From: Dethiobacter alkaliphilus
GTDB lineage: Bacteria > Bacillota > Dethiobacteria > DTU022 > UBA8154
Direction: 5' to 3'
Length of the DNA stretch: 64,000 bases
Assembly (NCBI GenBank): GCA_016841605.1
Contig: JAENYV010000016.1
Coordinates: 1 to 64,000 of the forward strand
Both the position numbers and the translations under genes were made by a program. The notes under the pieces were generated by a model, which was not told the DNA's origin, did not search any database, and saw only the letters and a program-made list of their open reading frames with translations. Below, piece by piece: positions 61,335 through 64,000 of the stretch; the first letter of the stretch is position 1; every line of letters begins with the position of its first letter.

Positions 61335-62918
61335 TTGAATCCAATTAAAAAGCTCATCATAGAAAATTTTCAAAGCCACGTAAAAACCATTATTGAACCC
61401 GCATCGGCAGGACAGCTTACGGTCATAGTTGGTCCGTCTGATTCAGGCAAAACAGTTATTTTTCGCAGTAAGCGCTGGGTTAGCAATAACGAGCCGGATG
61501 GAACAGGATTCATACGTGCCGGTGCAAATTTTTCCCGGGTAACAGAAGAGCTTGAAAGCGGTCATGCAGTAATTCGTCACAGGACAGCAGGCGGTATAAA
61601 CCGGTATATTGTCGTATCACCAGATGGAGAACGCCAAACTTTTGAAGGTTTTGGACGGGCGGCTGTGCCGCTTGAAGTTCAGGAAATAATAGGTGTTCGG
61701 CCAGTGACCATTGGCGATACAAAATTTAATCTAAACCTCGCTGAGCAGTTGGATAGTCCGTTTCTCGGCAGTTCCGTAAGCGCACCAGGAAGAGCTAAGG
61801 TTTTAGGTAAGCTTGCCGGTACCGAAGAGATAGATCATGCCGGAAAGTCATTAAATACAGATTTGCACCGCAGGAACCAAGACATAAAGCACCTGGACGA
61901 CGATCTCGATAACCTTGAAAGACAAATTAAGGTATACGAATGGCTACCGGCAGCTAAAGAAAAGATTTCTGTTTTGGAACAGCTGGTAGATGCAGTAAAA
62001 AGAGACCAGGAACGTCGGGAAAAGCTTATCAAACTGAAAGAATCCAGGCAACAGGTTGCTATTTGTATTGCAAATTCTGAAGCAGTTATCTACCGGCATA
62101 GAAACGTGGAGCTAATTGCTCAAATTGTCGTTGATGCAGAAAAAAAGAATGCACGCAAAAAGGCCGTTGAAGCACTGAAAACCACGCTGGGAAATAAGGA
62201 TTATCTGATTCTTGAATCTCAATGTGTAATTGTTCGCTGGCAGAGCATTGACCTGGCGTTCTACAACGTAGAAGAAGCCGAGTTCAAGAAAGTAAGAAGC
62301 AAGGACATCCGGGAAAAATTCCAAAAGTTGCAAGTTCTTAGCTCCGGCATTAGGCAGTCCGAAGATACGCTCAAGACCTGGAATGGTCTGCAGGGAGCAC
62401 AGAAAGCAGCATATAAAGCCGCCGAAAATCTGCAATTAAACCAGCGATTATCAAACCTGAGCAAGGCTTATGACAAGTCTATTACATCTATCTGCAGCGC
62501 TCAGGAGACTATCAAATGTCACCAAGCCTTGGCCGATGCCTCCGTATCAGCAGACAGGGCTACTGCAGTTATAGAGTCACGTGGCAAGATAGCCAAACTT
62601 AAGTCATTATACACCCAAGCAGATATTTGGGTAACTAATACTGAAAAAACCTTGCTTAAACTGGCCGGGCTTAATGATGTTGAGGCCGTACTATCCAGCA
62701 GCGTAGCAAACCTTGAACTGCAGCGTAAAGTTATTGACCTTTCCCGAAGATTAAGATCGCTTGAAGAAAACACCAGGCATTCCAGAGAAGCCGTTATGCT
62801 TCACGAGAACCGTGTGGCCGAATTGGAAGGGGCGTACCGTGATGAGCTGGTTACCCTTGGTAAGTGCCCAACGTGTGGAAGCATTGTAAATCTTGAAAAC
62901 CTTAGGGAGGTATGTTAA
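61335..62918 (+). CDS. Rad50/SbcC-like ATPase, N-terminal half with zinc hook
   Basis: 527 residues. An N lobe starts IKKLIIENFQSHVKT with Walker A GPSDSGKT (about 33-40); a long coiled coil (about 170-510) follows; the chain ends just after GKCPTCGS (about 515), a single zinc-hook CxxC. There is no Walker B or signature motif; these occur in the gene at 63193. This is the ascending half of an SMC-like protein, split at the hook. TTG start 61335 with GGAAGGAGG. The next gene's ribosome site lies within the end of this one. Confidence 0.85.
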   Translation: MNPIKKLIIENFQSHVKTIIEPASAGQLTVIVGPSDSGKTVIFRSKRWVSNNEPDGTGFIRAGANFSRVTEELESGHAVIRHRTAGGINRYIVVSPDGERQTFEGFGRAAVPLEVQEIIGVRPVTIGDTKFNLNLAEQLDSPFLGSSVSAPGRAKVLGKLAGTEEIDHAGKSLNTDLHRRNQDIKHLDDDLDNLERQIKVYEWLPAAKEKISVLEQLVDAVKRDQERREKLIKLKESRQQVAICIANSEAVIYRHRNVELIAQIVVDAEKKNARKKAVEALKTTLGNKDYLILESQCVIVRWQSIDLAFYNVEEAEFKKVRSKDIREKFQKLQVLSSGIRQSEDTLKTWNGLQGAQKAAYKAAENLQLNQRLSNLSKAYDKSITSICSAQETIKCHQALADASVSADRATAVIESRGKIAKLKSLYTQADIWVTNTEKTLLKLAGLNDVEAVLSSSVANLELQRKVIDLSRRLRSLEENTRHSREAVMLHENRVAELEGAYRDELVTLGKCPTCGSIVNLENLREVC

Positions 62919-62920
62919 CG

Positions 62921-63187
62921 ATGACAGTTTTAAGCGCACAGGTCGCAAATAATTCAGCGGACGTAACGCTCCGCCTTAATAACCTGAAAGATCAAATTGA
63001 AAGAGGCAAAGCCGAAAAGGCCAAAGCAGAGGCAAACCTGGAAACTTATACTAAGCAGCGCGACGAAATTGTTGCCCAATTAGCCGAGCTTGGCGTAACT
63101 CCAGAAAATTTAGAAGCGGAAATTCAGAAGCTGGACGTGGAGATTGACGAAAATTTACGTCGGGCGGAAGAGCTCCTCAGGGGGTAG
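62921..63187 (+). CDS. Small coiled-coil protein within the split Rad50-like operon
   Basis: About 88 residues, one long charged coiled coil (LRLNNLKDQIERGKAEKAKAEANLE onward), no Cys and no catalytic motif. ATG 62921 is 10 nt after GGGAGG; ATG 62912 is too close to that site. It lies between the N and C halves and may bridge or cap the coiled coil, which is inference. Confidence 0.75.
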   Translation: MTVLSAQVANNSADVTLRLNNLKDQIERGKAEKAKAEANLETYTKQRDEIVAQLAELGVTPENLEAEIQKLDVEIDENLRRAEELLRG

Positions 63188-63192
63188 GGACC

Positions 63193-63843
63193 ATGACTTT
63201 TACTCTTGCAAAAATCGAAATTGGTCTAGCGGACCTGCGGTCACGGTACCAGCAGGCCGCTGGCCAGCTGGCTCTACTGGAGAGACAAAAAGCAGAGAAA
63301 ATCGAACAGTTGTCTTCCGCCAAAAAAGATATTGAAACGTGGCAGCAAGTGCAACTCCTATTTACCAAAGCATCGGAATTTGCCCGAACTCAACTTAAAA
63401 AACGAATTGAAGAGACAGTGACAGCAGCATTACAGGCAATACTGGCCACTGACAGCATCGAATTTCAAATTGATATACGTATGCTCAGCGGTAGCCCCGC
63501 TGCAGATTGGTCCGTAGTGAGTAAATACGGCGATCTTATTGTAGCAGCTAACCCGGAGGACGGGCGCGGTGGAGGTGTCGCAGATATTGTAAGTCTGGCG
63601 TTAAGGTTAGCTCTACTGGAGTTGGCCAGGCCGAAGCCGAAGGGACCGATCTTCTTGGATGAACCCGGCAAGCATGTAAGTCGTGAGTATCTACCAAATA
63701 TGGCGGAGTTTTTGAAGCAGTACGCCCGGAAAACCGGAAGGCAAATCATCATGATTACCCATGCGGATCCCTTGGCCGATGTGGCTGACGTAAGTTACCG
63801 GGTAACGCAGGTTAATGGGATAAGTGAGGTGAGCAGGTTATGA
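63193..63843 (+). CDS. Rad50/SbcC-like ATPase, C-terminal half
   Basis: 216 residues: a coiled coil (about 12-75), then the C lobe with a degenerate signature region GRGGGVADIVSLALRLALLEL (about 118-138), Walker B PIFLDEPGKHV (about 151-161) and an H-loop ITHADP (about 192). No Walker A. With the 61335 product it would form a complete ABC-type head. Starts 5 nt after the previous gene and overlaps the next by ATGA. Confidence 0.85.
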   Translation: MTFTLAKIEIGLADLRSRYQQAAGQLALLERQKAEKIEQLSSAKKDIETWQQVQLLFTKASEFARTQLKKRIEETVTAALQAILATDSIEFQIDIRMLSGSPAADWSVVSKYGDLIVAANPEDGRGGGVADIVSLALRLALLELARPKPKGPIFLDEPGKHVSREYLPNMAEFLKQYARKTGRQIIMITHADPLADVADVSYRVTQVNGISEVSRL

Positions 63844-64000
63844 AATTTCTAATAATTGGCGACGTTCATTTTCGAGGCATGAATCCCCGCGCAAGGCTCG
63901 ATAACTACATGGAGGCAATCATAAACAAGATATTTGAGGTTTACGAACTGGCCCGGAAATATAAAGTAGAAGCCATAATCTGCCCAGGAGATCTTACGGA
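63840..64000 (+). CDS. Mre11/SbcD-like metallophosphoesterase (partial)
   Basis: The first 53 residues begin MKFLIIGDVHFRG, the metallophosphoesterase motif I (DxH), and reach CPGDLT, motif II (GD). The rest lies beyond the window. Directly after a Rad50-like C half with a 4-bp ATGA overlap, this is the expected nuclease partner. Confidence 0.88.
   Translation, partial: MKFLIIGDVHFRGMNPRARLDNYMEAIINKIFEVYELARKYKVEAIICPGDLT

Follow-up and report, generated by a model that had tools for sequence, protein, structure and literature searches.

Introduction

The closest described systems to the genes analysed here are the Rad50/SbcC and Mre11/SbcD proteins of bacteria and archaea, with which they share Walker A and Walker B motifs, an H-loop, a CxxC hook and a partner of the Mre11 type. 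A Rad50 chain normally carries a single CxxC, and how its coil and hook function is a long-standing question. Among phages, gp46 and gp47 of T4 form an Mre11-Rad50 pair, and the gp46 N-lobe aligns with the short N-halves described below (hhalign E 1.5e-10); gp46 relatives are single chains in which the hook, where measured, lies about 269 residues from the end.

Fusion proteins of Mre11 and Rad50, including one from Bacillus phage 0305phi8-36, were described by Yoshida, Claverie and Ogata (2011; PMC3175470), who reported that one SbcC P-loop NTPase segment 'was not observed' in 0305phi8-36 and Anaerostipes. In the relevant sections of that paper the missing half is not given as a separate gene, and the words 'split' and 'fission' occur 0 times; the relevant sections of PMC6375668 likewise make no mention of a split. 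The families called here N, k and C are already catalogued, as the separate PHROG families 16465 (exonuclease), 18563 (unknown) and 15167 (ATPase), in a listing that does not state that they make up a split Rad50. The literature searched, which left out most subscription papers, contained no account of Rad50 in split form or with 47-residue repeats.

Four coupled genes in a prophage

The window, meaning the whole 64,000-nucleotide stretch of DNA that was analysed (contig C4:1-64000, within a genome of 4.07 Mb), ends in a prophage cluster comprising N, k, C and Mre11-like genes (Table 1). The N-half is read from TTG 61335 and stops at 62918, while k is assigned the properly spaced start ATG 62921, as in the initial annotation, the ATG at 62912 given in the ORF list touching AGGGAGG. 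Two bases separate the N stop from the k start and five separate k from C; the start of the Mre11-like gene overlaps the stop of C in ATGA; and a Shine-Dalgarno-like purine run lies upstream of each of the four starts. These are four intact, coupled genes. The initial annotation had described Walker A and CxxC in one gene, then a small coil, a Walker B gene and an Mre11-like neighbour, and this held. It had also pointed to a single zinc-hook CxxC, which requires correction: the oddity is the position of the CxxC and not the count, the second hook cysteine lying 13 residues before the end of the chain. In the C-half, Walker B reads FLDEP and the H-loop ITH. The Mre11-like gene encodes 339 aa and extends past the window to C4:64859 (L005:3841-4860); its product has a calcineurin-like phosphoesterase domain, and TIGR00619 (sbcd) gave no match to it at E 0.01.

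Table 1 Features of the split Rad50-type operon (positions in the window)
Feature	Position	Strand	Details and evidence
N-half: N-lobe of Rad50 type, coil of 47-residue repeats, zinc-hook motif at the C-terminus	61335..62918	+	527 aa; phrog_16465, 3.6e-64
Walker A GPSDSGKT, residues 33-40 of N-half	61431..61454	+	G33, G38 and K39 nearly invariant (43 sequences)
N-half coil: seven gap-free 47-residue repeats, the last closed by the hook	61890..62876	+	repeat analysis with canonical SbcC control
CPTC zinc-hook motif, C511 and C514, within GKCPTCGS	62865..62876	+	both Cys invariant in 43 sequences
k: small coiled-coil subunit, motif LGVTPENLEAEIQKL	62921..63187	+	88 aa; phrog_18563, 8.8e-12; purifying selection in relatives
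C-half: short coil and Rad50-type C-lobe	63193..63843	+	216 aa; phrog_15167, 2.7e-61
GGG at ABC signature position of C-half (canonical SGG)	63568..63576	+	Gly 185, Ala 3, Ser 1 of 189 C-halves
Walker B LDE of C-half	63655..63663	+	D and E in 189/189 C-halves
Mre11/SbcD-like nuclease, start only in window	63840..64000	+	phrog_100; PF12850 1.8e-16, PF00149 1.3e-13

The prophage neighbours of the cluster are a RecD2-like helicase gene and replication genes, a setting that fits an inferred role in phage recombination or end-processing. Directly 3' of the Mre11-like gene, at C4 64862-65761 (L005:4863-5762), lies a member of a phage-type DNA topoisomerase family (phrog_6247, 1.4e-112), whose product resembles, by eye, a TOPRIM/topoisomerase VI A-like protein. 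Among the loci searched it was found beside the operon only in the window copy. If it is a Spo11-like cutter, its position adjoining Mre11-Rad50 would merit attention.

Conservation of the split

The genome of the window contains a second copy (L006, contig C21) in identical order, with an N-half of 559 aa ending in CPLC plus 13 residues, a k of 83 aa, a C-half of 218 aa and an Mre11-like protein of 357 aa. The two copies share 60% protein identity in the C-half, 59% in k and 38% in the N-half, and 66-73% DNA identity across three stretches. Because this diverged paralogue is split at the same place, and because unrelated phages share the split, the arrangement is attributable neither to chance nor to a frameshift. 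The rival view, that the locus is a frameshifted or decaying SbcC gene, can point to damaged-looking single copies, with broken N frames or no hook, at five of 80 chromosomal loci considered below (L214, L227, L241, L256 and L274). Against it, the split is common to the paralogue and to more than 100 distinct sequences, each gene has its own start signals, and dN/dS is well under 1 in every computable comparison. The conserved split refutes the frameshift reading, and this rival can for practical purposes be set aside; the earlier claims of a break at the hook apex, separate ribosome sites and no frameshift have held. A canonical SbcC (L286, signature SGGE) is also encoded in the same genome, so the prophage copy need not be the host's main enzyme. 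The host's own lineage was considered as the source of the copy, and vertical inheritance was dropped: one of 71 genomes of the order gave a match, the window's own.

Two scans of viral sequences retained 80 of 187 C-half relatives and 80 of 97 N-half relatives, which together with the own-genome copies and named phages gave 147 N-ORFs and 145 C-ORFs; none of these was a joined N-to-C chain. The N-ORFs represent 120 distinct sequences, 115 with a complete end, and CxxC is present in all but one of these 115 viral, prophage and phage proteins. It lies 4-30 residues from the end in 113 of the 114 (4-17 residues in 111, and 22 and 30 in two), the exception being L129, where it is 138 residues from the end and k is fused after it. 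The sole complete N-ORF without CxxC is that of Microbacterium phage Magritte (L008, L009), in which N and C are far apart in the linear record. The same split arrangement was sought elsewhere and was found, recurring across many phages and also on chromosomes. Tunturi_5, a 309 kb phage with an acidobacterium host, has N, k and SbcD. In an uncultured 485 kb phage, labels assigned by eye place SbcD, a RecB-like nuclease, k, a sliding-clamp-like gene and C in one run (L011:1538-5618), and N was not seen in that stretch.

The small subunit is nearly always present. Among 93 representatives picked for having N, C and Mre11 in one locus, k was matched at E <1e-4 in 75, in the orders N-k-C-M (25), M-N-k-C (25), N-M-k-C (23) and MN-k-C (2), and is fused in one further representative, L129; the other 17 were called N-M-C, and in many of them a similar ORF of 75-100 aa can be seen by eye just before C. 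For k, dN/dS was 0 to 0.12 in six of seven pairs, dS being saturated in the seventh, a pattern of purifying selection in these relatives. In Bacillus phage vB_BboS-125 the gene set is the same, but an AP2 gene that resembles a homing endonuclease has entered the N-k junction (L007:7416-7988). Gaps of several hundred bases between N and k recur in other prophages, and it is possible that this junction is a preferred homing endonuclease site.

The predicted ATPase head

Both halves give profile matches to the corresponding halves of archaeal Rad50, which is the best solved-structure profile match. Walker A and both hook cysteines are conserved in the 43 sequences compared; among the 189 C-halves Walker B is intact throughout and the H-loop histidine is present in 184. 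The initial annotation had placed the ABC signature in the third gene, and this failed in part: the window C-half reads GGGV where the SbcC of its own genome reads SGGE, as do 12 of 12 canonical SbcCs. Such a change from serine to glycine could weaken or alter ATP-driven engagement of the heads, though this is no more than a possibility.

It might be argued that the genes encode a defence or chromosome-structuring ABC system (LmuB/GajA/SMC-like) without any nuclease complex, since PADLOC gave weak N-lobe matches to the LmuB, GajA and PtuA models. Those matches lie mostly in the shared ATPase head, and the defence reading was rejected on that ground. Loci with N, C and Mre11 together are moreover the rule (the 93 tree representatives were selected for it), the best solved-structure profile matches are Rad50, and a chromosomal copy adjoins recA. 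This alternative is accordingly considered very improbable.

An arm of 47-residue repeats

Three sets of N-half coils (66 chromosomal, 44 long viral and 41 short viral) all show an excess of self-similarity that peaks at a shift of 47 residues, 94 also being high. Of the 150 coils with at least 200 residues, 103 had exactly 47 as their best shift, against 0 of 24 canonical arms; the repeat is absent from 12 canonical SbcCs, which show the ordinary heptad peaks (7, 14, 21). The distance from N-lobe to hook in chromosomal copies is 260 (2 cases), 305-308 (59), 311 (1) or 354 (4) residues, and in viral copies it clusters near 157, 204, 260, 307 and 353 with scatter between. The window arm measures 354 residues and those of its near relatives 307 (L012, L013) and 260 (L014). 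By comparison, k has a length of 75 (s.d. 4.8), the C-half stays near 207 in matched length, and arm and k lengths correlate at only 0.34 (152 triples). Since k and C keep a constant size as the arm lengthens one unit at a time, the most likely partner of the arm is inferred to be its twin, and not k and C or the arm itself.

AlphaFold2 (AF2) models were available for monomers only and without coordinates, so that helix pairing is not visible in them. The model of the window N-half (pLDDT 78.6, pTM 0.36) begins with an N-lobe, continues in long helices as far as residue 508 and closes in a terminal hook loop predicted with confidence; its N-lobe matches SMC/Rad50/RecF heads with Z of about 10-13.5 over 100-180 residues. 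The L129 fusion (83.9, pTM 0.44) was modelled as Mre11, N-lobe, ascending helices, hook, a short helix and two k helices with a break at GVD; the top Foldseek matches to this model are Mre11 structures.

Two rival assemblies must be weighed here. In the first, a canonical arm has merely been cut in pieces, the N-coil running up to the hook and k, then the C-half coil, running antiparallel down, to give an ordinary Rad50 with two nicks. In favour of this, k follows the hook in the same chain in L129, whose modelled helices run about 158 residues up (470-583 and 589-627) and 26+46+42 down, plus the short coil of the C-half itself; short viral arms (about 152-167 residues) also roughly fit k plus the C coil. 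Against it, k and C remain constant although the majority of arms reach about 307 or 354 residues, whereas the two arms of canonical SbcC are near-equal (mean 350 and 329). The nicked-arm model nevertheless cannot be excluded. With hhalign the k profile gave no match to the post-hook, descending coil of T4 gp46, so homology between the two was not detected, and only gene order and a single fusion support the view of k as equivalent to the descending strand.

In the second, the N-coil folds back into a hairpin or into several short stacked helices, leaving the CxxC near the head and not at a tip. A low-confidence break at residues 346-361 of the modelled window N-half, between helices 256-349 and 362-508, would allow this, as would the single Gly/Pro/Asn/Asp-rich spot at positions 24-27 of each 47-residue unit. 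Core spacing is coiled-coil-like throughout the unit, however, and differences between relatives of single units (260, 307, 354) would upset a long hairpin, so that this model appears unlikely. The reading preferred here remains that of paired arms with the hook at the tip. The proposal in the initial annotation that head and hook assembly must differ from normal Rad50 is supported by sequence only, through the unequal arm lengths and the homogeneous 47-residue repeat arm.

A recA-linked chromosomal operon

A scan of genomes kept 80 of 106 C-half relatives, mostly from Bacillota (L200-L279). In most of these loci Mre11, N, k and C are adjacent and split, although contig ends truncate some of them. 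None of the 80 yielded a homologue in which N, a coil and C form one chain. recA is present in 62 loci, rny in 64 and both in 58; the order, with gene names read from the proteins by the analyst, is pgsA, cinA, recA, (recX), Mre11, N, k, C, rny. The description of the genes as a phage operon is thus only partly upheld. In the phylum to which Alkalihalophilus pseudofirmus (L217) belongs, an evenly drawn sample gave matches to N at 1e-15 in 66 of 398 genomes; four open frames of more than 600 aa were fetched from these, three of them coil-less fusions and one an ordinary split copy, and the other 62 genomes were not viewed individually.

A full-length match to TIGR00618 (SbcC) was found in five of 29 carrier genomes (G076, G078, G079, G083, G095) and was absent from 24, although draft gaps may hide some. 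The control is weak: all 14 reference genomes give a match, one of them above the cut-off, and only matches spanning most of the profile were counted. There was no match to PF13558 in 19 of 30 genomes, one of the 30 (L269) being a prophage-type carrier. PF13558 was rejected as a counter of SbcC, its strongest matches belonging to another family, and its count is an upper bound; of 12 such proteins fetched none has CPxC and most have 'INWHY' near the printed start, and we take them to be likely JetC/MksB. The NCBIfam cut-off was reached by none of ten proteins tested. These results suggest that the Mre11-Rad50 system of many Bacillota, adjoining recA, has gone unnamed.

Natural fusions and phylogeny

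Mre11 and N are fused in L043, L047 and L129, the last continuing through hook and k (Mre11+N+hook+k). The only single chains found to contain both N and C are three coil-less Mre11+N-lobe+C-lobe proteins of 684-700 aa, without CxxC and without k (L281:4152-6254, minus strand; L282:3083-5170, minus strand; L283:1764-3818, plus strand). As these and the Magritte N-half have no CxxC, the hook is not universal. In L281 the fusion adjoins a protein of 1151 aa that by eye is AddB-like; the neighbour in L282 is less clear.

A joint tree of Mre11, N-lobe and C-half from the 93 representatives, with SH-aLRT support only, places the window copies in a clade of prophage loci ordered N-k-C-M; a chromosomal clade (M-N-k-C) adjoins it, and both lie among other viral clades. 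In a tree made for placement of the coil-less proteins, which used 73 rows after removal of six with long branches and some of the rest, the trio is monophyletic (100), inside the chromosomal split clade (99) and sister to a split copy (97). Their nesting in the split clade indicates that the coil-less chains were re-fused from a split ancestor.

Two findings would have told against the initial annotation: continuous single-chain homologues, and a C-half that pairs with a different N-half. No continuous chain with a coil occurs in any of the viral, phage, own-genome or chromosomal sets above, and the second is contradicted by the adjacency of k and C to N in the operon and by the natural fusions of N with Mre11 and of N, C and Mre11. 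Its overall interpretation is supported, and the phenomenon is broader than was first noted.

Proposed mechanism

The gene structure, conserved split, motifs, repeats, gene linkage and natural fusions are established, and they probably describe a DNA-end nuclease of Mre11-Rad50 type with an ATPase subunit built from three chains; assembly, zinc binding, arm pairing and DNA-end nuclease activity are all inferred. The partnership of N, k, C and Mre11 has the support of conserved clusters and fusions alone. N-half and C-half would form the two lobes of one ABC head, and the heads would be bound by the Mre11-like nucleases that cut DNA. The long arm would come from the N-half only, as a coiled-coil rod whose length depends on how many 47-residue repeats it contains, with CxxC at the tip; two N-halves would join through their C-terminal CxxC motifs in one Cys4 zinc site, a clasp at the chain end and not at a hairpin bend. 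The descending strand would be replaced by k together with the short coil of the C-half, most likely placed next to the head or against the initial portion of the arm. The role would be DNA-end processing in phage recombination and replication and, in chromosomal carriers, that of the main Mre11-Rad50 system.

It is tempting to go further and combine several proposals: that two N-halves make a parallel homotypic rod, zinc-clasped at the chain ends; that its length is a multiple of a unit of about 7 nm, units being gained or lost; that C-lobes and k are detachable subunits; and that this form is old, the main Mre11-Rad50 of recA-linked carriers and the ancestor of the coil-less single-chain enzyme. 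Taken jointly, these are possible but less likely than not. Nature offers a series, from split heads with a terminal hook, through arms differing by whole 47-residue units and the hook-less Magritte, to a coil-less and hook-less single chain; and since each piece has its own gene, the hook, the head and the length of the arm can be altered one by one.

Comparison with known systems

Judged by the features of Rad50/SbcC, the split system has Walker A in an N-terminal ABC lobe, Walker B and the H-loop in a C-terminal lobe, and CxxC; it does not have the signature serine (1 of 189), both lobes and two coils in one chain, or an apical hook in mid-chain. Its lobes are instead in separate chains, the hook is at a chain end, there is an extra subunit k, glycine replaces the signature serine and the arm is made of 47-residue repeats. 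T4 gp46 differs from it in being one chain of 560 aa, with the hook 269 residues from the end and the signature SEGE. The fusion reported by Yoshida, Claverie and Ogata has a counterpart in L047, which we take to be probably Bacillus phage 0305phi8-36: there the Mre11+N fusion ends at the hook, and k and C come next as separate ORFs.
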